A stretch of DNA of 64,000 bases from Bacteroidota bacterium (GTDB lineage Bacteria > Bacteroidota > Bacteroidia > Bacteroidales > SZUA-534). Below are positions 37,980 through 51,601 of this stretch, one piece after another. The notes under the pieces are model-generated. The model had not been told where the DNA came from. It saw nothing but the letters and a program-made list of their open reading frames with translations, and ran no database searches. Made by a program: the position numbers and the translations under genes. The DNA is taken from NCBI GenBank assembly GCA_003250355.1, contig QKGS01000067.1, forward strand, positions 1-64,000, in the 5' to 3' direction. Position 1 is the stretch's first letter; each line of letters begins with the position of its first letter.

Positions 37980-40900
37980 ATGAAACAATTGATTACACTA
38001 TTTTCATTATTGCTATTTGCTGCCGGTTCAATGGTTAAAGCAAATGACACAGTTCAAATTGATATTAATTTTGATGTAAACCATATTGTTGGAAACATTG
38101 ATTCATTTGATCGTCAGAAATTTGTAACCATACATGCTTCACCAACAGAAAACGATTGGACACAAACAGGTATGACCACTGATTATATGGATTACCTTTT
38201 TGAAGATTTAGGGGTCTATTTTGGTCGCGATAATGGTCGTTTGGGCTCTGAGGTTCGATGGTTTTTACAGCAAGATGCAACTCGCCCTGGGTATGTTTCA
38301 CCTTCGAGTATTAGTACCAGAGGTGCTACATTTAAGTCGGAATATAATACTAAGCCGATATGGAACAGGTACGACGATAAGAATGACGTAATGATGGGTG
38401 GGCAAGTAAACGGTATGTGGCATACACCAACAGGAACAACATGGGATTGGGCAGGTCCCGATGCTGTAGGGGAGTATCTTGCACGTTGGGTTGCCGGTGC
38501 TCATCGTCCTATTGGTGACAATAACAAAGCAAATGGTATGCCTATGAATCGTTTTGTTGAAATACTTAACGAACCTCTTTATCATTTTGTTGACGATGCA
38601 ACTATCGATGAAAGCGAAAAGGAAGACCCTATAACCGTATTTCGTTTTCACCGCGACGTAGCAAATGCATTTCACAATCAAAATACAACAGGTGCTAAAA
38701 TAGGTGGTTTTACAACTGCATTTCCATATTTTACCGATGATGAATTTCAGCGTTGGGATAAACGTATGAAGCTTTTTATGGATTCTGCAGGCTCGGCTAT
38801 GGATTTTTATTCGATACATATTTACGATTTTAATAAGCACCACGACGGAACTCATCGCCACTTTAAAGGGAGTAGAGTAGAGGCAACATTCGATCTTATT
38901 GAAAACTACAGTATGCTTATTGATAATGAAGTGAAGCCATTTGTTATATCGGAATACGGTGGTCGCGATCTTAAAGAAGAGTATAAAACATGGAGTGCAG
39001 AGAGAGACTGGAAATATATGAAAGCATTTACTCCACTGTTAATGTCATTTATGGACAGACCCGATATAATGCTTAAAACCATTCCATTTATTCCTGCGAA
39101 TTATTATTGGTATCAAACTTATAATCCGGGTAAAAACCCTTATCCATGGAGACTGTTTCGTCGTTCCGGAGAACCGGCAAGCAACGATGGTGATTATGTT
39201 TTTACAGAACTCATTAAGTTTTATGAATTGTGGGACGACATAAACGGAAAGCGTATAGATACATGGTCAGTTAATGCTGATGTTTTGGTTGACGGATATG
39301 TTGAAAACAATACTGCATATATTATTTTAAGCAATGTTGGTTTTGAAGAAGAGCCGATAAAGCTAAACCTGAATGGGTTAAACGGAAATACTATTACCGG
39401 CGTAATGCTTAAGCACTTGCATTCGGTTAATGAATTGCCAAAGCTGGATACTTTGCAGGTTTCTGAATTGGACTCATTTACCCTCGACCCGGAAGCCAGT
39501 GCGGTAATTAAATATACATTTGCTTCAAATGTTACTGTCGACAAGAATTCTTTAGAAACAAGATATTATAGCGATAAAGTAAAACAGGAAATTAAAGCAA
39601 ATACTCCGGTTACTTTTAATGTAAATAATGTTGTTACCGATACATACGGCTCGGCAATTTTGCGTGTTTCATTTGGTCGTGCCGATTCTCTAGCAAAACA
39701 ACCAATTGTAAAAATAAACGGTGATTCTTTAATAGTGCCGATGAACTTTAGTGGCGATGATGTAGTAAGTAGCTACCCTTGGTTTTATGGATTGCTGGAA
39801 ATTCCTGTACCTTACCGATTACTATCGGCAAACAATACCGTAACTGTAGAATTTCCCGATGCCGGCGGATACATAAGTGCTGTAACAATGAAAGTATTTA
39901 ATAATGACCGCAGTATAGTAAGAAGCGATTCTGTTCAGAGTGTTAGTATTTATCCGGCATCGCTAAGTTTGGGAATAGATCAGTTTCGACAATTGACGGC
40001 AGCTGTATTGCCAACTTATGCACAAGACAAACGTGTGGAATGGAAATCATCTGACGAATCGAAAGTTACTGTTGACGCAAACGGTAAACTTCAAGGTAAA
40101 GCAGTAGGTAGTGCTATTATTACAGCCACTTCGGTAAATGGAATAGTAGCCAACTGTAATGTAACAATTGAAAGTTCTAGGGTTCCGGTTTTAGTTGATA
40201 CGGTAATTGTTAAACCGGCAACGGCTGAACTCATTGAAACTAAAACCATCCAACTTAGCTATGAGATTTTACCTGTCGATGCTGACGATAAATCAATTAT
40301 ATGGTCGACATCAAATAGCAATGCTACGGTTGCTGATGGCTTGGTAACGGCAATTTCAGAAGGGAATGTTGATATTATAGCTTCAGGAGCAAATAATAAG
40401 GGAGGATTTAGTTCATTTGATATTATAAAAAGAATTCCTGGTGTTATTGAACTAATTGATGAAAGTTCATATGAAATAATTCAGGAAGGAACTAGTTTTA
40501 CAGTTGTATGTAATTACTTTACAACTACAGGAGAAACATTAACCGGTTTGCGTTTTTCACTTGAAGTTGTTGATGGCGACAGTAATCTTATAAAATTGTA
40601 TAATGCATATGATAATGCAAAAATAGGTTCTACAAGTGGGACATCAACTGTAACTATTGGTTCAAGAAGAACTGTAGCTTCTGCAAACCTTCCTGCCGGG
40701 CAGTATTATGTTCTTAATATTGTAATGACAGAATCTGATGGCAATGAAATAATTAAAAGTATGCGTGTTACCGTTGGCGAGCCAAATAGCGCAGAAGATA
40801 ATATTGCTGAATCACTATTGATATATCCCAATCCGGCAAAAGATATTCTAAATATTAGTGGTTTATTAGCTGATAAAACATATGTGGTAAGTGTTATAAC

Positions 40901-41042
40901 TATGCAAGGAATAGTATTATTCAATGATTTGATTAATTACTCAGTTGATAAACAAATAAATATATCTGATTTACCTGAAGGTGTTTATATGCTTAGTGTA
41001 TCAGGTGAAAATATTAATAAAACTCTTTTGCTAAAAAAATAA
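37980..41042 (+). CDS. Secreted GH86-type beta-agarase/porphyranase with T9SS sorting domain
   Basis: 1020 residues. The signal peptide ends near MVKAND. Residues ~25-430 look like a glycoside hydrolase clan A barrel of the GH86 agarase/porphyranase kind: FDVNHIVGNIDSFDRQKFV, GRDNGRLGSEVRW, acid/base Glu198 in EILNEPLYHF and nucleophile Glu325 in FVISEYGGRD. A beta-sandwich follows (~430-650), then two Ig-like group 2 repeats (SIYPASLSLGIDQFRQL; KPATAELIETKTIQL, ~660-815). The end (LLIYPNPAKDILNISG to the KTLLLKK tail) is a T9SS type A sorting domain, so the enzyme crosses the outer membrane and is likely tethered to the cell surface. It heads a polysaccharide locus. GH86 assignment is by pattern recognition; agarose and porphyran cannot be separated. 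Confidence 0.82.
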   Translation: MKQLITLFSLLLFAAGSMVKANDTVQIDINFDVNHIVGNIDSFDRQKFVTIHASPTENDWTQTGMTTDYMDYLFEDLGVYFGRDNGRLGSEVRWFLQQDATRPGYVSPSSISTRGATFKSEYNTKPIWNRYDDKNDVMMGGQVNGMWHTPTGTTWDWAGPDAVGEYLARWVAGAHRPIGDNNKANGMPMNRFVEILNEPLYHFVDDATIDESEKEDPITVFRFHRDVANAFHNQNTTGAKIGGFTTAFPYFTDDEFQRWDKRMKLFMDSAGSAMDFYSIHIYDFNKHHDGTHRHFKGSRVEATFDLIENYSMLIDNEVKPFVISEYGGRDLKEEYKTWSAERDWKYMKAFTPLLMSFMDRPDIMLKTIPFIPANYYWYQTYNPGKNPYPWRLFRRSGEPASNDGDYVFTELIKFYELWDDINGKRIDTWSVNADVLVDGYVENNTAYIILSNVGFEEEPIKLNLNGLNGNTITGVMLKHLHSVNELPKLDTLQVSELDSFTLDPEASAVIKYTFASNVTVDKNSLETRYYSDKVKQEIKANTPVTFNVNNVVTDTYGSAILRVSFGRADSLAKQPIVKINGDSLIVPMNFSGDDVVSSYPWFYGLLEIPVPYRLLSANNTVTVEFPDAGGYISAVTMKVFNNDRSIVRSDSVQSVSIYPASLSLGIDQFRQLTAAVLPTYAQDKRVEWKSSDESKVTVDANGKLQGKAVGSAIITATSVNGIVANCNVTIESSRVPVLVDTVIVKPATAELIETKTIQLSYEILPVDADDKSIIWSTSNSNATVADGLVTAISEGNVDIIASGANNKGGFSSFDIIKRIPGVIELIDESSYEIIQEGTSFTVVCNYFTTTGETLTGLRFSLEVVDGDSNLIKLYNAYDNAKIGSTSGTSTVTIGSRRTVASANLPAGQYYVLNIVMTESDGNEIIKSMRVTVGEPNSAEDNIAESLLIYPNPAKDILNISGLLADKTYVVSVITMQGIVLFNDLINYSVDKQINISDLPEGVYMLSVSGENINKTLLLKK

Positions 41043-41075: not shown

Positions 41076-41112
41076 AGATGGTGTCCCAGAAGTATCGGAC
41101 ACCATCTTTTTT
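41076..41112 (+). terminator. Terminator after the GH86-type gene
   Basis: AGATGGTGTCC and GGACACCATCT form a perfect 11-bp stem around a 10-base loop, followed by six Ts. Confidence 0.92.
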
Positions 41113-41174: not shown

Positions 41175-42413
41175 ATGATTGAGCAAGAATACCTAAAAAA
41201 ATGTCTTTCCGAAATAGAAGGTAAACTCCAATGGGGAGCATCACATAACTGGACAAACCGAGAGTTTACAGAATTGAGTATACTTGTTAGTGAAAAATCG
41301 GGCATTTCTATTAGTACTTCATCTCTTCGACGATTATTTGGCAGGTCAACAGATTATCAGAAGCCATATAACCCTCAGCTTGAAACAAAAAATGCCCTTG
41401 CAAAATTCCTTGATTACAATAGTTGGCACGAATACAAGCAAAAAAAAATACCGGAATCAAATAAGTCGGCAATAACTAAAAAAAGAGTGTTAACTATTGC
41501 TATTATATTTGGTGTAAGTATTCTTGTAGCTATTATATTATTCTATAATATAAATATTGTTTCAAAGAATCCGTTTTTTTTAAAAGGCGATTTTAACTTT
41601 TCCGGCAAAGACCTTGTTAGCAATGAACTTCCTCACACTATACTGGTTAAATATAATGTTTCAGAGTTAGAAAAGCCTTTATATATCGATTGGGACGATG
41701 TGTCGCCCGATGCCACCGGTGGTTCTGATTATGAAATTATAACATCTGATTCAGGATCGTTTACTCATACATATTTTTTTAAAGATAAATACGATATTCG
41801 CTTGCTCGATAAAAACCACAATACAGTATCAACTTTACAAGCTATTATGTATTCCAATAGTTGGGAGTGTTATGTATATCAGGGAGAAACAAAATTACTG
41901 ACCGACTCTTTGTATTTTATATGCGATAGTGTTATGTATGCCGATAATGCTTATTTAGCAAATAAGGGCATTGACTTTACTAAACCTTATAGAGTTATTT
42001 ACCGTAATTTATCGCAGTTTAGTGCTGATGCAAATAATTATACATTTTCTGTCGATTTTTTGCCCGAGTTTCGGCAAGGATATATAGAGTGTGGTCATGT
42101 TCAAATAGAGGTAATAGGTTCCGGTGGAGGTAATCTTATTACACTTATGCAAAATGGCTGTACAGGTCAACTTGGTGCTATTTATTTAAATAAAGTAATA
42201 CTTTCCGGCAAAAAAACCGATTTGTCGGCATTTGCAGTCTCAGACCGTGTGTGGCAAAATTTAAAGCTTCATGTCCGAAACGATTCTACTTTTATATCAT
42301 TGAGAGATCAAAATATTTTAAGCATTGATTCACCATCCTCAATTGAAAATATTCTTGGTATACGTATCGAATTTCTTGGAAATGGTATGGTAAAGAATAT
42401 TTCTCTACAGTAA
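41175..42413 (+). CDS. Membrane-tethered HTH-like regulator with extracytoplasmic sensor region
   Basis: 412 residues. Residues 1-90 are cytoplasmic and look like a Cro/C1-type DNA-binding fold: NWTNREFTELSILVSEKSG, ISTSSLRRLFGRSTDY, then TKNALAKFLDYNSWHEY. One transmembrane helix lies at 105-126, preceded by TKKR (positive inside). The periplasmic ~285 residues hold a PKD-like strand set (LYIDWDDVSPDATGGSD, SFTHTYFFKDKYDIRLLD) and a concanavalin/LamG-like region (YTFSVDFLPEFRQGYIECG, WQNLKLHVRNDSTFI). No receiver, kinase or sigma domain. It sits between the GH86 gene and the CBM6/susCD units, where a hybrid two-component system or ECF sigma/anti-sigma pair would be expected, so it is probably the one-component regulator of the locus, sensing glycan. 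This is inference. Confidence 0.78.
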   Translation: MIEQEYLKKCLSEIEGKLQWGASHNWTNREFTELSILVSEKSGISISTSSLRRLFGRSTDYQKPYNPQLETKNALAKFLDYNSWHEYKQKKIPESNKSAITKKRVLTIAIIFGVSILVAIILFYNINIVSKNPFFLKGDFNFSGKDLVSNELPHTILVKYNVSELEKPLYIDWDDVSPDATGGSDYEIITSDSGSFTHTYFFKDKYDIRLLDKNHNTVSTLQAIMYSNSWECYVYQGETKLLTDSLYFICDSVMYADNAYLANKGIDFTKPYRVIYRNLSQFSADANNYTFSVDFLPEFRQGYIECGHVQIEVIGSGGGNLITLMQNGCTGQLGAIYLNKVILSGKKTDLSAFAVSDRVWQNLKLHVRNDSTFISLRDQNILSIDSPSSIENILGIRIEFLGNGMVKNISLQ

Positions 42414-42518: not shown

Positions 42519-42555
42519 TTTGAAAAAGTTTGAGAATACTTTGATAAAGTATTGA
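42519..42555. promoter_or_regulatory. Helically phased TTTGA repeats upstream of the CBM6-protein gene
   Basis: TTTGA at 42519, 42529 and 42540 and a fourth, ATTGA, at 42551: spacings 10, 11 and 11 bases. ACTTT-GAT-AAAGT within them is a small dyad. The array ends 97 bases before the gene, suitable for an activator. Confidence 0.4.
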
Positions 42556-42651: not shown

Positions 42652-45459
42652 ATGAAAAGAAACACATTAAAATTAAACTTAATTGCAATATTTCTTATTG
42701 CAATATTTTATCAGAGCTTTGCAGGAGCTCCCGATTATTGGCCAGGATATGGCAGAATTGCACTTAGTTCCGATGGTAATAAGCACGACAACGACGATAT
42801 GCAGGCTACAATGATGACAATAATGATTCTAGCCAAGGCTCAATTACAAAACGAAACTGTATTATATACTTATGCCGACCATGTTTGGGGTAGTGAAGGT
42901 ACCGACCTTGCTATTATGAAAGAGAGTGCCGAAGGAGGAGGTGCAAAATTTGGCTTCACTAAAACAAATTTTATTCCCGCCGTTACATACCCCGATTCTG
43001 CGTATAATGAAATGGCAAAGGCAATAGCTGCATCAACAGCAAAAAGCCCGCTATTTATTATTGCAGCCGGCCCTATGCAGGTTGTTGGTACTGCTCTTCA
43101 GCTTGCCGGCGATGCAAACCCTGAATCATTAAATCATGTAACAGTTATTTCGCATAGCTGGTGGAATAATGTTCATGCCGATAATCCGGAAGGAGCAGGT
43201 AGTGTACATGGAGAGGAAACAGCACACTCCGGTTGGACTTGGGCTGAAATGGAAACTGCATTCGGTGATAAAGTTAACTTCAATTACATAAGTGATCAAA
43301 ATGGTACAGGTGCCAATCCATATATTACTAAAGATAAATTTAGTGCGCCCGACTGGAATTCATGGTCTTGGATGAATACCCATACCGACCCTAATGTAAA
43401 GTGGGTTTACACAAGGGGTGTTAGCAATCCTGCTGGTCCCGATTACTCCGATGCCGGTATGGCTTATTACTTTTGTGCTAACAAAGGCGATGAGTTAGGT
43501 AATCCGGTTAAACTTAAAGATTGGATAGGCAGTGCAGTTATTAATACAATTGACTCTACTACTAATACAGAAATTGAAGGTCCTGTTCATTGCATTACTA
43601 TAATGTCGAAAGATTTTGACAAATATAAAAGTATGGGGGCAGGATTTTTAAATGCTGACCTTGCTGCTGTTCCAAATGTGCCTGCCGGAAGTGCTAATGT
43701 TGGAGCAACTGTATTGTCGTGTCCTCCTCCTGCAGGTACTCCGGGAACATCAGTTGCATGGAGTGCTGCCGAAGAAATATATACAGGCCCTGCAATGAGC
43801 GCAGTTTTTCGTTTGAATACCATGCTCGAAAGTGATGGCGAATGTACCTATAAAGTATTAGTTAATGGAAATTTTGTAGGTGAAATAACCAATCCGAGAA
43901 ATCAACACGGAGAATCAGGAGCTCTTCCTGAGTACAGTATTTATACAAAGCTTGTTAGTGCTACCGGTATTGGAATTAAATATGGCGATACTATTCGTGT
44001 TGAATTTAATAATATTTCAAATAAACTGCATACTGAAGGAGCCGGTCATGCTACTGCCCGCGGTCGTTGGGAAAGTATTGAAGTATGTTCAGCAAACGAT
44101 ACTCCTATAACTTGCGAGGGTGCTTCAGGTGCATTTATTGAAAAAGATGGTTTGCTTATTATTGAAGCTGAAAGTGTTGAAAATTATGAGTCAAAAGGAT
44201 TTAAACTATATAATAAATCGGTAGGCTCGTCTCCAACAGGTGATGGTTTTTTACGCTACGAAGGCCCCGATAATATGGGAGCTCAGGTGGCTGCAAATAC
44301 ACTTAGTTATAAAATACAAATTAATAATCCGGGTGAATATAATTTTGTGTGGCGCAATGTTCGTGATCCTAATGCTACCACCGGTGATGCTGCTAACGAT
44401 AGCTGGCTTTTAATTAAAGGCGACGGTTGTTCTTTTTACGGCCGTTTAGCAACTGATCCTATATCACTTTCAAAACATACAAAAATGTGGGTGCAAAAAA
44501 GTGAATTTGTATATGAGTGTTATGGTGAAACACACGAACATGGAGCTACGCAAAATGGTATGGCAATATTTGCAAACTTCGATAAAGCAGGAGAGTACAC
44601 CATTGAGTTTGGAGGACGCTCAAATGGTCATAGTGTAGATAGAATTGTACTTTACAAAAGCGACATGAAAGATTATGCAATTAATGTTTTATCGCCCGAA
44701 TCGGGTCGTACCGACTGTGACCTCAATAAAGAACTACCGGTTATTATTGCTCCTGAAATACCAAATGACAATCCAAATCCAAGCCCGGAGCAGGGAAATA
44801 TAATAACTATTGAAGCCGAAACATACACTTCAACCGGAGGTACTTTTGACGATGCAGCATGTTGCGGCGGTCCCGGTTTAGGCGTAAAAAATGCAACAAC
44901 AGGAATTAACTATGTAAACTCAGGCGATTATGTTACTTATAATGTAACCATTCCTAAAACCGACTATTATTATGTAACCTATTATTTGTCAACCCCTTCT
45001 ACCGGAGCTACCATTGCTTTTTACGACGGGGCTACAAAGCTGAATACTTCAACTGTACCCAATAACGGTGAATGGGATTCATACTATGGATTCTATATGC
45101 AGCAAACTGTTTTGCTTACCCAAGGTGAGCATACTATAAAAATAGAAGCCGGAGGAAACGATTGGGCATGGAATCTCGATAAGTTCACATTGCAAGAAGA
45201 TGTAAATAATGAACCAACCTCAGCAACTGATTATGTTGTAGAACTTTTCGAAGTATATCCTAATCCTTTTAACGATATACTAAATGTAGTTTCAGGTGAT
45301 GATTTAAGTGAAATTGCCATTTTTCAAGCTGATGGCCAAATGGTAAAAAAATATTCACAAATAAATTCTAAAGAGTTCAGCTTTTCTACATCAGAATTAA
45401 ATGGCGGTATATATTTCATTAAAATAAATAATTGCTTTACGCAAAAAGTAGTAAAGTAA
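42652..45459 (+). CDS. T9SS-exported multidomain protein with CBM6, galactan-locus member
   Basis: 935 residues. Signal peptide ends near QSFAGA. Residues ~30-340 form an alpha/beta domain with an Asp-rich loop DGNKHDNDD (41-49) and LYTYADHVWG, FIIAAGPMQVVGTALQLA, VISHSWWNN; the Asp cluster recalls nucleoside-hydrolase-like folds, but I cannot assign it. Next come two carbohydrate-binding-like beta regions (~345-480, ~485-690; the second starts LLIIEAESVENYESKGF). A clear CBM6 follows (IITIEAETYTSTGGT, VNSGDYVTYNVTIP, WAWNLDKFTL; ~745-860), and a T9SS sorting domain ends it (EVYPNPFNDILNVVSG to CFTQKVVK). It is probably a surface galactan-binding or -cleaving protein, possibly with a new catalytic domain. 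Confidence 0.8.
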   Translation: MKRNTLKLNLIAIFLIAIFYQSFAGAPDYWPGYGRIALSSDGNKHDNDDMQATMMTIMILAKAQLQNETVLYTYADHVWGSEGTDLAIMKESAEGGGAKFGFTKTNFIPAVTYPDSAYNEMAKAIAASTAKSPLFIIAAGPMQVVGTALQLAGDANPESLNHVTVISHSWWNNVHADNPEGAGSVHGEETAHSGWTWAEMETAFGDKVNFNYISDQNGTGANPYITKDKFSAPDWNSWSWMNTHTDPNVKWVYTRGVSNPAGPDYSDAGMAYYFCANKGDELGNPVKLKDWIGSAVINTIDSTTNTEIEGPVHCITIMSKDFDKYKSMGAGFLNADLAAVPNVPAGSANVGATVLSCPPPAGTPGTSVAWSAAEEIYTGPAMSAVFRLNTMLESDGECTYKVLVNGNFVGEITNPRNQHGESGALPEYSIYTKLVSATGIGIKYGDTIRVEFNNISNKLHTEGAGHATARGRWESIEVCSANDTPITCEGASGAFIEKDGLLIIEAESVENYESKGFKLYNKSVGSSPTGDGFLRYEGPDNMGAQVAANTLSYKIQINNPGEYNFVWRNVRDPNATTGDAANDSWLLIKGDGCSFYGRLATDPISLSKHTKMWVQKSEFVYECYGETHEHGATQNGMAIFANFDKAGEYTIEFGGRSNGHSVDRIVLYKSDMKDYAINVLSPESGRTDCDLNKELPVIIAPEIPNDNPNPSPEQGNIITIEAETYTSTGGTFDDAACCGGPGLGVKNATTGINYVNSGDYVTYNVTIPKTDYYYVTYYLSTPSTGATIAFYDGATKLNTSTVPNNGEWDSYYGFYMQQTVLLTQGEHTIKIEAGGNDWAWNLDKFTLQEDVNNEPTSATDYVVELFEVYPNPFNDILNVVSGDDLSEIAIFQADGQMVKKYSQINSKEFSFSTSELNGGIYFIKINNCFTQKVVK

Positions 45460-45631: not shown

Positions 45632-45661
45632 TTGAATTATTTTTGAAATAAGCTATATTTG
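45632..45661 (+). promoter_or_regulatory. Promoter of susCD
   Basis: TTG (45632-45634), 19 bases, TATATTTG (45654-45661): perfect consensus. A TCAAAA-N11-TTTTGA dyad (45624-45646) straddles the -33 element. The leader is about 148 bases. Confidence 0.75.
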
Positions 45662-45815: not shown

Positions 45816-48800
45816 ATGAAGAAAAACAAACTCAACAGCTTTAATCAAAAGCTTTTAGTATTGTTAGCAATCTTCACAGTATCAGTTTCATCTGTATTTG
45901 CACAGAAAACCATAACTGGTGTTGTTAAAGATTCTGACGGCGAACCTCTTCCGGGGGTTAACGTAATTATTGAAGGTACTACCACTGGTACCATTACCGA
46001 CTTTGACGGTAACTACTCTATTGAAGTACCATCTGACAATTCGGTACTTATATTCTCAATGGTAGGTATGGCTACCGAGAAAGTTGCTGCAGGTTCTGTA
46101 ACAGGTGAACCTATGATGCTTCTGCCCGACTTAGTAGGCCTTGACGAAGTAGTTGTTGTAGGTTACGGTACACTTAAAAAGAAAGATATTACAGGTTCAG
46201 TTTCATCTATTGGAACTGATGATATCTTAACATCTCCTATTACCTCTCTTGATGCCGGTCTTCAGGGTAAAATGCCGGGGGTCACTCTGCAGCAAAGTAC
46301 AGGAGCACCTGGGGCAGCAATGAAAATGCGTATTCGTGGTAGCTCTTCTATTAATTATTCAAATGAACCTCTATACGTAATAGATGGTTTTGTTGGTGGA
46401 GATATGACTAGTGTTAACCCGGGTGATATTGAGCGAATTGATATCTTAAAGGATGCTTCTGCTACGGCTATTTATGGTTCTCGTGGATCGAATGGAGTTG
46501 TTCTTATAACTACTAAAACAGCTAAAGCTGGAGAATTCCGTATTTCTCTCGATGGAACATGGGGTATTAGTCAGCAAATAAAAGATATAGAAGTTCTTGA
46601 TCGTGGCACAAGAGCATTCTTAATTAATGAAAGTGCAAAAGATGCTGCAAGCATAGCTACAGATCCTAATGATATAAGGAACTATTTTACCGATGCGCAA
46701 GTGGATTCTTTAAAAGCATTGCCTACACAAAATCCATTCGACTATATTACTAGGACTGCTTTTACACAAAATTATAATTTATCTATGTCAGGAGGTACTG
46801 ATAAAATAACTTATATGCTATCTGGAGGTTATATTAATGAAGAGGGTATTATTAAAGAATCATTCAGAAAAAAATACTCTATTCGTTCAAATGTTAAAGC
46901 TGATATTAAGCCTTGGTTAGATATTAAGTTTAATACTTATGCTACGCACGATAATTCGATGCATACCGACCCTAACCACCGTGCTATTTACGATTGTTAT
47001 TATCATAATACAATTTGGGATATATATAAACCTGATGGTAGTTATGCAATGCCATATGGTCCTGATTTGTCAAAGGGCGATTGGGAAGGATATGGAGATT
47101 TAATTCCGGACAGACCTAACCCAATACAGTTTAATGAGTTACAGGCATTCGGTGAAAATTTGAATGAAGGAGTAACTTCATCGTTAGATCTTAATTTTAA
47201 AATAACTAAAGATCTTACATTCACAACTACTGCATCAGGTAGATATTCTTTAACTTATGAAGGAAAAACAGGATTGCCTGATGGTCGCAATATTCCTGAC
47301 GAAAATCAAATGAATGCTCAAAATGAATATCATCGTAATCGTTCATTGTTAACAACTAACATACTGAAGTACAATAAGACGATTGGGCTTCACGATATTA
47401 CTTTGACAGGTGTTTACGAGTATAGTTCGCAACAGCATCGCAGAACAATATCAAAAGTTGGTACTTTAGCATCATCACTTAACAAATGGTATGTTTTAGG
47501 TATTGGTCAGCCAACTAGTACAGAATCTTATTATTGGATTAAGCAAATTCAATCATATATGTTTAGAGGTAATTATAGTTTTGCCGATAAATATTTACTT
47601 ACAGGATCTCTTCGTAGTGACAAAACATCTGTTTTTCGTCCGGGAAATCAGACGGGAATATTTGCTGCATTTGCCGCAGGTTGGGTAATAAGCGAAGAAA
47701 ATTTTATGAGTTCTTTTGAGTGGTTAAGTAATTTAAAATTAAGAGCTGGTTGGGGACAAACTGGTAATATGGCAATTGGAGCATATGAAACTAATGTGTC
47801 GGTTCAAGCACCTTATGGTTATGGCTTTAGAGGATACTATGCTACTTATGGTTCGCAAGATGGAATTACCGGTGGTCTTATTCCTAAAAATAATACAGTA
47901 AATAAAACCATAAAGTGGGAGACTGCTGAACAAACTAATATTGGGTTCGATATAAGCCTGCTTGATGGAAAAATTAATATTACTACCGACTATTATTTTA
48001 AACAAGCAAAAGATGCGATATTACAAAAATCTATTCCTCAATACACAGGTAAAGAATTTATAACCGATAACTATGGAACTATAAATAATAAAGGATTTGA
48101 GTTTATGGTTGATTGGAGTGCAATTGAGTATACTGATTTGAAAGTTAATGTTGGTTCTAACTTATCTATAAATAGAAATAAAGTAGTAGATGTAGGTGGG
48201 GACGATAAAATATTTGTTGATGAAACAGATATAGGTAATCGACTTTATGTGTGGGGGTTAGCTGCCAATCATATGTTTGTTGTTGAAAAAGGAAAACCAT
48301 TAGGACAGCTTTATGGTTTAAAGTACAAAGGGTTGGTTCAACCAGATCAGGTTGATCCAGTTAAAGGTGTTAATGAATACCAAAGTTTTGCAGGAGAACC
48401 TCTTTATGAAGATACTGATGGTAGTGGAGTTATTGATGGAGAGGATAGGGTAGTTATTGGTAATTCACAAGCCGATTTTACATATGGCATTAATTTGAAT
48501 GTAACATATAAAATATTTAATCTTGCTATTAATGGATTAGGTTCATATGGTAACGATATATATAACTATAATCGCCATTTTATGGATGCTAATATGTCAA
48601 ATCCAAACTATGTAAACCGGTGGACTCCACAAAACCAAGGAGCTACACAGCAGAGATCTCCTGCGGGTAATAAGTATAACGATTTTTATCTTTCAAGTCA
48701 ATATATTGAAGATGGTACTTTCTTTAAAATTAAGAATGTTACACTCACATGTAATTTGCCAAAGCAATGGCTTGATTTTGTGAAAATTAATTCATTTAGC

Positions 48801-48962
48801 ATTTTTGCAAGTGCTAATAACTTATTAACATTTACAAAATATTCGGGAATTGATCCTGAAGCATCATCTACAGGAAACTCAAGTGAGGCTATGTCTGGCT
48901 TCGATGCTTATTCATACCCTCTTGCTAGAACTTATACTTTTGGATTTAAAACAAATTTTTAA
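45816..48962 (+). CDS. SusC/RagA-type TonB-dependent outer-membrane transporter
   Basis: 1048 residues. Signal peptide ending SVFAQ, then a carboxypeptidase-regulatory-like domain (TITGVVKDSDGEPLPGVNVI, FDGNYSIEV; ~30-110), a plug domain (VVVGYGTLKKKDITGSVSSI onward, with SIRGSSSIN as MRIRGSSSINYSNEPLYVID) and a 22-strand barrel ending YTFGFKTNF. The family imports oligosaccharides through the outer membrane with TonB/ExbBD energy. The downstream susD, 11 bases on, provides the lid. It is expected to import the oligogalactans released by the GH86-type enzyme. Confidence 0.95.
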   Translation: MKKNKLNSFNQKLLVLLAIFTVSVSSVFAQKTITGVVKDSDGEPLPGVNVIIEGTTTGTITDFDGNYSIEVPSDNSVLIFSMVGMATEKVAAGSVTGEPMMLLPDLVGLDEVVVVGYGTLKKKDITGSVSSIGTDDILTSPITSLDAGLQGKMPGVTLQQSTGAPGAAMKMRIRGSSSINYSNEPLYVIDGFVGGDMTSVNPGDIERIDILKDASATAIYGSRGSNGVVLITTKTAKAGEFRISLDGTWGISQQIKDIEVLDRGTRAFLINESAKDAASIATDPNDIRNYFTDAQVDSLKALPTQNPFDYITRTAFTQNYNLSMSGGTDKITYMLSGGYINEEGIIKESFRKKYSIRSNVKADIKPWLDIKFNTYATHDNSMHTDPNHRAIYDCYYHNTIWDIYKPDGSYAMPYGPDLSKGDWEGYGDLIPDRPNPIQFNELQAFGENLNEGVTSSLDLNFKITKDLTFTTTASGRYSLTYEGKTGLPDGRNIPDENQMNAQNEYHRNRSLLTTNILKYNKTIGLHDITLTGVYEYSSQQHRRTISKVGTLASSLNKWYVLGIGQPTSTESYYWIKQIQSYMFRGNYSFADKYLLTGSLRSDKTSVFRPGNQTGIFAAFAAGWVISEENFMSSFEWLSNLKLRAGWGQTGNMAIGAYETNVSVQAPYGYGFRGYYATYGSQDGITGGLIPKNNTVNKTIKWETAEQTNIGFDISLLDGKINITTDYYFKQAKDAILQKSIPQYTGKEFITDNYGTINNKGFEFMVDWSAIEYTDLKVNVGSNLSINRNKVVDVGGDDKIFVDETDIGNRLYVWGLAANHMFVVEKGKPLGQLYGLKYKGLVQPDQVDPVKGVNEYQSFAGEPLYEDTDGSGVIDGEDRVVIGNSQADFTYGINLNVTYKIFNLAINGLGSYGNDIYNYNRHFMDANMSNPNYVNRWTPQNQGATQQRSPAGNKYNDFYLSSQYIEDGTFFKIKNVTLTCNLPKQWLDFVKINSFSIFASANNLLTFTKYSGIDPEASSTGNSSEAMSGFDAYSYPLARTYTFGFKTNF

Positions 48963-48973
48963 TATTATAAACA

Positions 48974-50710
48974 ATGAAAATATATATAAATTTATTTAAA
49001 TACTTCACATTTGTTGCTATTAGCATAATGCTATTAAATGGATGTGAGATTGATGAAGGTCTTGATGGATCTATATCTGGTGAAACTATATATAGTACCG
49101 AAAATGGAGCAAATCAAGGACTAGATGGTATTATGGGGCTTTATTACAATAGTTTTCAAGGAGGTCCGCTTATTAAGGATTATTTAACAGTATTCACAGG
49201 AGCTGATGACATATCTTCAACTACAGGTCAAAATAAGTGGTATTATCGTCAGGCAGATCAATTTGACCGTAGTTCTGCAAATTCTTATGTTATGAATTTT
49301 TATGAAAATGCATATAAGTGTGTAGGTGCGTGTAATGAATTTATTGATTTTATGGATGAAGATGCTTGGAGTGATAAAATAGATAAATACCGATACTTTA
49401 TTGGGTGTGCCCGTTTTATTCGTGCTATTACATATTTTAATCTAACGAGAACTTTCAATGAAATTGCTATGCCTATTTCAAGTGAAATAGATACGGAAAT
49501 GGCAAAGAGCTCGCAGGTTCAAGTTTTAAGTCAGGTAATTGACGATTTAAAGTATGCAGCAGCTTATGTATATAATGAACAAAGAGATAAGAAAGAAAAT
49601 GTTGCTGCTCATAATATTAACGGCAGACCATCAAAACATGCGGCTTGGGCTTATATTGCAAAAGCTTATATGGCTATTGATGGTTATCCGTCTAATCAAA
49701 AATCAAATGCGAATTGGGATATGGTAAAGGCATACACCGATTCTATTATTAATGAAGGTGTGTATACTTTGCTTGATGACTATGCCGAAAACTTTGGATA
49801 CAAAGGTAAAACATTATTTGGATCTATATCTCAGCAAGATTGGGAAGGTAACGAGGAAGCAATATGGTCACTAATAGGTCAACAAGATTATTCTGGAGCA
49901 GGAAGAGGTACTCAAATCAGATGGTTTGGAGATCCATGGTTTGGTTGGAAAGATTTTGTTGTTGAGTGGAATTTTTACAATAATACTTATCGGAAAGATG
50001 ATTATAGAGGAAAATTCTCTATAACTGCTGATGCCAATTGGCCTTATATGGGATTCTCAAAATTTGATTTTGCAATTGGACAGAAGCATCCACTAGTTAT
50101 GAAGCATCAGTGGGGAGGAGTTACAGGTTCTGCTTTTAAAGTTTGGACAAATACTCCGAAACGAAACCCTGTTCCTGAACGCTTTGGAGGATATGAACAT
50201 CAATATGAACAATCAAACGATTTGCCTATTATAAGGTATGCAGAGGTTCTTTTAATGAATGCAGAGGCAAATGCCCGTTTAGGTAACACATCTGATGCAA
50301 TTGAAAAATTGAATTGGGTGCGTCGCAGAGCTTATGCTGCAGGCGTTAGTCATTATTTTGAGGCTATTGCCGATTCTATTGCATCTGGATATATTTCATC
50401 TGGATATTGGAAACTCGATAATTCAATAACCAATGTTAACGATTATCCAAAACTTGCTTCAGATACTGACAATAGCATAGAGGGGAATGCTTTGTTAACA
50501 GCTATTGTTAATGAAAGAGCAAGTGAATTTGTTGCGGAGCTTGGCGGAGTTCGTTGGTTTGACCTTGTTCGACTTGAAAAAGTATCTGATTATTCAAGAG
50601 CTGCAGACGATCCTCTTGAAATTCCAATTATTGGTTCTTCTGCCGATAAAGGACAATGGTTTTTTCCATTACCATCGCTTGAAGGGGCATACAATCCTAA
50701 TTTGCGATAA
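48974..50710 (+). CDS. SusD/RagB-type surface glycan-binding lipoprotein
   Basis: 578 residues with a lipoprotein signal (ISIMLLNGC, Cys24) and a following acidic EIDEG that suits surface export of Bacteroidota lipoproteins. The SusD fold is visible: N-terminal GLDGIMGLYYNSFQ, TPR-like helices (YRYFIGCARFIRAITYFNLTR), and C-terminal IVNERASEFVAELGGVRWFDLVR. It caps the SusC barrel and binds the glycan. Length is typical. It ends at a long-stem terminator. Confidence 0.95.
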   Translation: MKIYINLFKYFTFVAISIMLLNGCEIDEGLDGSISGETIYSTENGANQGLDGIMGLYYNSFQGGPLIKDYLTVFTGADDISSTTGQNKWYYRQADQFDRSSANSYVMNFYENAYKCVGACNEFIDFMDEDAWSDKIDKYRYFIGCARFIRAITYFNLTRTFNEIAMPISSEIDTEMAKSSQVQVLSQVIDDLKYAAAYVYNEQRDKKENVAAHNINGRPSKHAAWAYIAKAYMAIDGYPSNQKSNANWDMVKAYTDSIINEGVYTLLDDYAENFGYKGKTLFGSISQQDWEGNEEAIWSLIGQQDYSGAGRGTQIRWFGDPWFGWKDFVVEWNFYNNTYRKDDYRGKFSITADANWPYMGFSKFDFAIGQKHPLVMKHQWGGVTGSAFKVWTNTPKRNPVPERFGGYEHQYEQSNDLPIIRYAEVLLMNAEANARLGNTSDAIEKLNWVRRRAYAAGVSHYFEAIADSIASGYISSGYWKLDNSITNVNDYPKLASDTDNSIEGNALLTAIVNERASEFVAELGGVRWFDLVRLEKVSDYSRAADDPLEIPIIGSSADKGQWFFPLPSLEGAYNPNLR

Positions 50711-50806: not shown

Positions 50807-51601
50807 ATGAAAAAGATTTATTCTTTAATTGCTGCTGTAGTTATGGCTTTTGCAGCTAATGCTCAGTATGTTGATGCTTCTATTAATTGCACTGGTCCAA
50901 AGTGGGTAAGTGAAACAAATTTTTGGGATTGGGATCAGGATGCATCAAGTGCTGCTGTTCACTTCAATAATTTTGCTCCAGGTGCAACAGTAGTTCTTTA
51001 TTTTGAAAATTACGATGCGAGTGATGCGTACATTGATTTTGAAGTAGATAGTATAACTACTATGTACGGTTGGTTTATCGGTGAAAAAGCTGATGGTACT
51101 GCCGTGTGGTCTTTTACGCAAGGGTTTAATGTGCCTCAAAAAACACTCTATCCTACTGATTTTGATGATGATGGAGACTTAGGTCATGTTTCGTTAGAAG
51201 TTAAATTTCCGGCAGATATGACAACAACTCCTGATATGCTTGCTTCTCAAGCTAATGAAGGTTATTATATGTTCCAATCAAAAGCTTGGAAAAATGGTGC
51301 TGCTTATGCTACAGGTGCAGCAGCGCAAATGAATATCAATTTTGAAATTCAAACAACAGGAAAAACATCAAACACTTGTGTACATATAATTGCTCCAGAA
51401 GTTACTTCTAAAGACGTAGTTCTTGCTCCTAACCCTGCTGTTAAAGGTGAGGTTGTAGCTGTAGAAGGTGCTGTTGAAGTTTACAACATTGCAGGTTCTT
51501 TAGTATTAACTGCTGTTGACGCTATCAACACTGCTGACCTTAACGCTGGTGTTTACTTTGTAAAATCAGGTGATGCAGTTGCTAAATTAATTGTTGAATA
51601 A
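50807..51601 (+). CDS. Small T9SS-exported protein of unknown function in the galactan locus
   Basis: 264 residues. Signal peptide ending AFAANAQ. Residues ~20-200 appear to be a single beta-sandwich (YVDASINCTGPKWVSETNF, AAVHFNNFAPGATVVLYFEN, FDDDGDLGHVSLEVKF). The last ~60 residues are a T9SS type A sorting domain (VVLAPNPAVKGEVVAVEG to DAVAKLIVE). It follows susD after a terminator with its own start, so it may be expressed separately, perhaps strongly. No family recognised. Its position suggests a surface glycan-binding protein, replacing the SusE/SusF-type lipoprotein; this is inference. Confidence 0.8.
   Translation: MKKIYSLIAAVVMAFAANAQYVDASINCTGPKWVSETNFWDWDQDASSAAVHFNNFAPGATVVLYFENYDASDAYIDFEVDSITTMYGWFIGEKADGTAVWSFTQGFNVPQKTLYPTDFDDDGDLGHVSLEVKFPADMTTTPDMLASQANEGYYMFQSKAWKNGAAYATGAAAQMNINFEIQTTGKTSNTCVHIIAPEVTSKDVVLAPNPAVKGEVVAVEGAVEVYNIAGSLVLTAVDAINTADLNAGVYFVKSGDAVAKLIVE

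Follow-up and report, generated by a model that had tools for sequence, protein, structure and literature searches.

A probable one-piece inner-membrane switch of Bacteroidota and the phased DNA repeats before its neighboring gene

Control of glycan loci in Bacteroidota is generally attributed to hybrid two-component systems (HTCS), ECF sigma factors, or SusR. Of these, SusR, from Bacteroides, acts as a one-component regulator in the inner membrane; its DNA-binding domain is at the C-terminus, and direct-repeat boxes 67 or 77 bp apart are predicted as its sites (PMC3878776). We analyzed a stretch of 64,000 nucleotides from a genome of the Bacteroidales (contig QKGS01000067.1; hereafter called the window) that encodes a regulator resembling SusR in its combination of a periplasmic sensor with a cytoplasmic DNA-binding domain, its possible SusC/SusD neighbors, and its predicted direct-repeat operator. 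It differs from SusR in that the putative helix-turn-helix (HTH) domain is N-terminal and the C-terminus lectin-like, and in that the units of the predicted operator are spaced by 10 to 11 bp. A first-pass annotation of this DNA had described the protein as a membrane-tethered regulator of a little-described class: The one-component, tethered architecture is strongly supported by structural model, topology, genomic linkage, and repeat arrays, but membrane-anchored one-component glycan regulators are already known in Bacteroidota with SusR, and what is new here is the family.

CadC has the same domain order as ToxR and TcpP and contains an OmpR/PhoB-type domain. For ToxR and TcpP, this order is HTH, membrane helix, and periplasmic domain, likewise with DNA-binding domains of the OmpR/PhoB type (PMC8546550). 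Our regulator shares with all three a probable N-terminal DNA-binding domain, a single transmembrane (TM) helix, and a C-terminal periplasmic sensor, but where these proteins carry an OmpR/PhoB-type winged HTH it has a lambda-repressor/XRE-like domain without Pfam match, and no OmpR-type winged HTH appeared among the Pfam or fold results for its N-terminal domain. Hybrid two-component systems, too, are encoded next to polysaccharide genes and have a membrane sensor and a DNA-binding domain on a single chain, whereas Pfam recognizes no kinase, receiver, or AraC domain in our regulator. Phage CI and XRE regulators (TP901-1 CI, DdrO, C.Esp1396I) resemble it in the predicted fold of residues 1 to 92 and in the alignment of the recognition helix, but these proteins are soluble while ours is membrane-bound, and the sequence similarity is marginal. 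Finally, a genome-wide survey of transmembrane transcription regulators from 2023 identified such proteins by Pfam DNA-binding models (PMC10269533) and would thus miss any family that these models do not match. Our regulator combines at least one TM helix and an extracytoplasmic part in a single polypeptide, as transmembrane transcription regulators do, but has no DNA-binding domain that Pfam recognizes; binding to a target promoter is suggested indirectly by the phased arrays.

The regulator gene is found in the middle of a series of genes on the forward strand. It is preceded by a gene for a GH86-type beta-porphyranase with BPA_C and Big_2 domains and a T9SS tail (37980–41042, +, from domain matches), and the two are likely separated by a terminator, judging from a perfect 10-bp inverted repeat followed by a T-run at 41077–41106 (+; GATGGTGTCC...GGACACCATCTTTTTT). 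Downstream lies the presumed direct target (42652–45459, +), singled out by the repeat array in its promoter region, which encodes an exported, T9SS-sorted protein of 935 amino acids with GH115_C and CBM35-like segments; its N-terminal approximately 400 residues have no Pfam match. Domain matches further identify a SusC/RagA TonB-dependent transporter (45816–48962, +), a SusD-like lipoprotein (48974–50710, +), and, at the end of the locus, a T9SS-sorted protein of 264 amino acids (50807–51601, +). The earlier placement of the regulator inside a polysaccharide locus is therefore sound, given the GH86 porphyranase, SusC, and SusD genes that flank it. The same is true of the reported absence of the usual regulators, because the stretch from 35.9 to 53.7 kb of the window showed no gene for an HTCS, an ECF sigma factor, or an anti-sigma factor, and no other regulator gene was seen in the locus.

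The open reading frame at 41175–42413 (+) starts with ATG and encodes 412 amino acids, exactly as first annotated. Full-length homologues at 21% to 32% identity align with the regulator from end to end, and it is thus a real and complete gene. A profile search recovered around 60 full-length homologues across Bacteroidota, and the closest relatives that we found (approximately 30% identity over the full length) come from Seonamhaeicola algicola, a Seonamhaeicola metagenome-assembled genome, and one genome of the window's own family. With the full-length profile, about 10 of the 393 genomes sampled from the window's order were found to encode full-length members, while approximately half of the sampled genomes of another family (f52) do so, some of them with 3 or more copies; further members come from additional families and from beyond the class to which the window belongs. 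These samples are phylogenetically unbalanced, with many homologues from family f52. The window's own genome (3.7 Mb) encodes a single copy of the regulator and of its HTH. When 14 full-length members are aligned, a single conserved architecture emerges, composed of approximately 90 residues of N-terminal helices, one TM helix, and PKD-like and concanavalin-like parts. Sequence scans of the single regulator protein against Pfam, NCBIfam, and PDB gave no useful match (for NCBIfam, none that was meaningful), phage records contained no match to the protein, and no paper describing the family was found in the open-licence literature. With no library model available for the family, annotation misses the regulator.

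We conclude that the regulator is very probably a one-piece inner-membrane switch that senses an extracytoplasmic signal, probably a sugar chain, and binds DNA repeats set at even intervals before a neighboring gene. More specifically, we give a probability of roughly 80% to a type II inner-membrane one-component regulator whose protomers bind phased repeats upstream of the adjacent exported gene and activate this target upon ligand binding. In this model, the HTH would lie in the cytoplasm, one helix would cross the inner membrane, and the PKD-like and lectin-like part would be exposed to the periplasm. Several protomers would line up head to tail along a single DNA face by binding to helically phased direct repeats (the 4 TTGA units at 42520–42555), and the regulated gene would be the one starting at 42652, possibly together with SusC. 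The ligand of the lectin-like domain would probably be an oligosaccharide released from red-algal galactan, and its binding would switch the protein, most likely by altering the clustering of protomers, and thereby activate rather than repress the target without release of the regulator from the membrane. We infer such a tethered activator as the most economical model.

The membrane topology expected from this model is seen in the protein sequence. A single TM helix is predicted at residues 106 to 126 (KKRVLTIAIIFGVSILVAIILFY; 41490–41552, +) after a KKR motif that fits the positive-inside rule, and nearly all homologues have one TM segment at the equivalent position. Beyond the membrane, weak family matches and the structural model point to a PKD-like extracytoplasmic domain with approximate limits at residues 138 to 215 (41586–41819, +), and family matches together with Foldseek indicate a concanavalin/lectin-like domain from around residue 262 to residue 412 (41958–42410, +). 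The weak matches of some family members are to PKD_4, to DUF1080 (3-keto-disaccharide hydrolase, ConA-like), and to the GH59 lectin domain, and the full regulator model, itself weak (pLDDT 55, built with 3 sequences), matched the lectin region of galactocerebrosidase, CBM66, PL7, and galectins in Foldseek. Of 62 members, 60 have both C306 and C329 of the lectin-like domain and the other 2 have neither, and this shared fate suggests a disulfide bond and hence an extracytoplasmic location. The architecture initially read from the sequence, with N-terminal helices, one TM helix, and an exported part with PKD-like and concanavalin-like segments, is thus borne out by model, TM prediction, and family matches. 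No sugar-binding site was identified in the sensor part, and this counts against the explanation that we favor.

Local regulators are usually arranged back to back with their targets across a short promoter region that both genes share. The upstream neighbor could be read for 58 full-length homologues and lies on the opposite strand in 52 of them, mostly across gaps of 100 to 150 bp, compared with 145 of 529 control genes of the same loci (27%). A signal-peptide-like N-terminus makes 48 of the 52 divergent neighbors look exported by a simple hydrophobicity rule. The combination of divergent orientation, export, and a distance of 50 to 300 bp separates homologues from controls with p = 1e-27 (Fisher test, uncorrected for relatedness or common ancestry), and 16 of the 20 loci from the order of the window (L082–L101) also have the divergent layout, so that the bias is not confined to the dominant family. 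The link of homologues to glycan genes, by which the first-pass annotation could be checked, fares less well: A neighborhood survey supports it for the locus in the window and for some other loci, which have sulfatase, SusC, GH43, GH2, or GH115 neighbors, but not for the family in general. Enrichment of SusC-like genes (within approximately 9 kb of 11/62 homologues versus 1/20 control regions) or SusD-like genes (3/62 versus 2/20) is not convincing. In single loci, the downstream neighbors include GH115, GH2, GH5, GH88, or RGL11 proteins. The family members are therefore not generally regulators of polysaccharide utilization loci; this link is a minority pattern, and the rule is the divergent exported gene.

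The identity of these exported partners bears on what the sensor may read. DUF1080/ConA-like proteins are the most frequent type (22/58; among others in loci L103, L107, L110, L116, L119, L121, L122, and L125–L128) and share the fold class of the regulator's own sensor domain, so that a link between the ligands of sensor and partner is worth considering. Further partners include DUF2911 proteins, alpha/beta hydrolases, DUF5107 proteins, a sulfatase, SusC, and an oxidoreductase. It is possible, though on the whole unlikely, that the sensor reads a protein instead of a glycan and follows the state of its exported neighbor to adjust that partner's expression. The shared fold class of sensor and DUF1080/ConA-like partners would suit this idea, as would the many partners without known glycan role such as DUF2911 proteins. 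However, the sensor part is conserved across partners as diverse as sulfatase, SusC, hydrolases, oxidoreductase, and DUF5107 proteins, and sugars are the usual ligands of lectin-type folds.

At the other end of the protein, residues 1 to 92 (41175–41450, +) likely adopt an HTH fold of the lambda-repressor/XRE type, as judged from AlphaFold2, Foldseek, and profile matches that are individually weak (E > 0.1). An AlphaFold2 model of residues 1 to 95 built with 2 relatives (pLDDT 83, pTM 0.73) contains 5 helices at residues 2–18, 28–42, 48–54, 69–78, and 84–91. Members of the lambda-repressor/XRE superfamily have a five-helix fold in which the second and third helices form the HTH. They are the best fold and profile matches of the domain, with E-values of only 0.1 to 6: In Foldseek, 7 of the 8 best matches are regulators of this type, each of them weak (E of at least 0.8), and the exception at rank 5, phage Mu Ner, is likewise a DNA-binding protein; the matches include DdrO, phage repressors, C.Esp1396I, ComR, and C.BclI. 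A profile of 62 sequences matched phage TP901-1 CI over positions 22 to 78 (E = 0.13) as well as XRE and Sleeping Beauty HTHs, and aligns the family motif SxSTLxR with SKSTLSQ(YV) of TP901-1 CI. Model and profile alignment place the putative recognition helix at residues 47 to 56 (STSSLRRLFG; 41313–41342, +), where S47, T50, and R53 fall in almost invariant columns of the family alignment. The domain is matched by no Pfam or NCBIfam model, and neither the regulator nor the 62 aligned N-termini of the family gave a Pfam DNA-binding match at a meaningful E-value. The HTH-like character originally proposed for residues 1 to 90 nevertheless withstood a structure check, since the matches are lambda-repressor/XRE proteins. 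The same N-terminal module also occurs fused to Kelch repeats behind a TM helix, fused to NACHT/AAA-like NTPase domains, or in proteins of approximately 190 amino acids with a C-terminal domain of around 100 amino acids that matches no assigned family (loci L033, L034, L035, L037, L040, and L049, with the match near position 1500); none of these 6 loci has TTCAA arrays.

The putative operator in the window, which the first-pass annotation had not mentioned, consists of 4 TTGA units at 42520, 42530, 42541, and 42552 (spacing 10, 11, and 11 bp; 42520–42555, +) that lie 100 to 132 bp upstream of the start at 42652. In the 3.7-Mb genome, 3 TTGA units at 10 to 11 bp occur in 5 places only and 4 units only here. 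None of 20,000 dinucleotide-preserving shuffles of the intergenic region produced 4 such units, and the array is the only four-fold chain of any 4-mer (with at least 3 letters) among 179 upstream regions of the same genome. Elsewhere in the genome, arrays of 3 TTGA units are no commoner than a reversed control pattern, and we therefore do not claim them as regulon members. Neither the immediate upstream region of the regulator gene in the window nor that of the porphyranase gene (37980–41042) contains an array, phased in the latter case. A possible second, weaker site upstream of SusC comprises 2 TTGAA units 11 bp apart (45632–45647, +), a pattern seen in 2 of the 179 upstream regions; it sits beside a TATATTTG -7-like box and, because of this overlap with promoter-like sequence, is only suggestive.

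Across the family, upstream regions contain direct repeats of T[TG]CAA units, mostly TTCAA, that are spaced by 10 to 11 bp with up to 4 consecutive units (for example at -48, -38, -27, and -17 from the regulator start). Pairs of such units 10 to 12 or 21 to 23 bp apart are present in 19 of 58 family upstream regions versus 3 of 502 controls, and the same pattern on the reverse strand in none of the 58. With a matrix built from 44 units (consensus [GA]TTCAA[GA]TT), a leave-one-out scan placed 33 of 59 regions above the 2% control threshold, among them 16 of the 42 regions outside the training set. The TTCAA array is absent from 25 of the 59 homologue regions, and in these 25 there are 12 exact 5-base direct repeats at 11 bp where 3.3 would be expected (p = 3e-5), so that the spacing is conserved and the unit variable. 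The window itself, with TTTGA and ATTGA, departs from the commonest family unit, which reads TTGAAC on the same strand. This departure weighs against the explanation that we favor, as do the 25 regions without a TTCAA array, the lack of an array immediately upstream of the regulator gene in the window, the weakness of the single HTH matches, and the unbalanced sampling. In loci L090 and L091, direct repeats of TGGCC(A) with an exact 11-bp spacing (3 units in L090) are found approximately 90 to 100 bp upstream of regulators that adjoin similar divergent genes of around 500 amino acids, which suggests that the repeat unit co-varies with the HTH.

The orientation of the arrays relative to the presumed target is constant throughout the family. 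Where the two genes diverge, an array could serve either of them. Only 2 array-bearing loci have regulator and target in the same direction, the window and L085; in both, the array is located downstream of the regulator and before the next gene, and it has switched strand, which leaves TTGA(A) on the sense strand of the target as in divergent loci. Because the array precedes the next gene with its orientation kept, these 2 loci argue that it serves the target and not the regulator. The unit nearest to the target is found at a median of 72 bp from the target start in divergent loci (interquartile range 57 to 88), and the units of L085 lie 60 to 82 bp before the likely target start. With arrays thus approximately 60 to 130 bp upstream of target start codons, the bound regulator would be well placed to contact RNA polymerase. 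Sites that follow one another head to tail along a single face of the helix would fit protomers lined up and anchored in the membrane.

We think it rather improbable that the regulator is instead cut in or near the membrane upon a periplasmic trigger, with the freed HTH domain binding the arrays in the nucleoid. Such cleavage might use the linker between HTH and TM helix (residues 92 to 105), which has low confidence in the models and varies in length among homologues. No linked protease was noticed among the neighboring genes, however, and adjacent head-to-tail sites, though compatible with release, better suit clustered tethered protomers. It seems highly doubtful that the N-terminal domain mediates protein interactions instead of DNA binding and leaves the phased repeats to another regulator: Although this would explain why Pfam finds no DNA-binding domain and why the module also occurs on array-less NACHT-like, Kelch, and small proteins, the arrays adjoin the family whatever the partner gene and follow the target when the gene order changes, and the fold and profile matches are HTH repressors. 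It is scarcely credible that the arrays belong to the regulator's own transcript, as RNA or promoter elements, rather than serving as operators of the target because, even though they end at a median of 26 bp from the regulator start codon in divergent loci, the window and L085 with their arrays downstream of the regulator contradict it.

We judge the odds to be only somewhat better than even that the regulator belongs to an unrecognized, phylum-wide family of Bacteroidota with its own class of N-terminal HTH, in which extracytoplasmic glycans are read by lectin-like domains and tethered protomers occupy phased repeats whose unit is set by the HTH. If this is true, operator, target, and regulator would be predictable from sequence alone. 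The short phased arrays allow a cheap and direct prediction of targets and offer a route to understanding how a membrane-fixed transcription factor finds and activates promoters.

A separate subfamily of homologues with approximately 500 amino acids (L138:8145–9743, L139:8157–9665, L140:8970–10475, and L141:8706–10199) has no TTCAA arrays. We considered a different N-terminus for these proteins but rejected it because, by eye, they appear to carry a diverged form of the same HTH domain. Upstream of L140 and L141, there are repeated TTTTGCAAAA- and TTGCAT-type palindromes that possibly represent a different type of operator.
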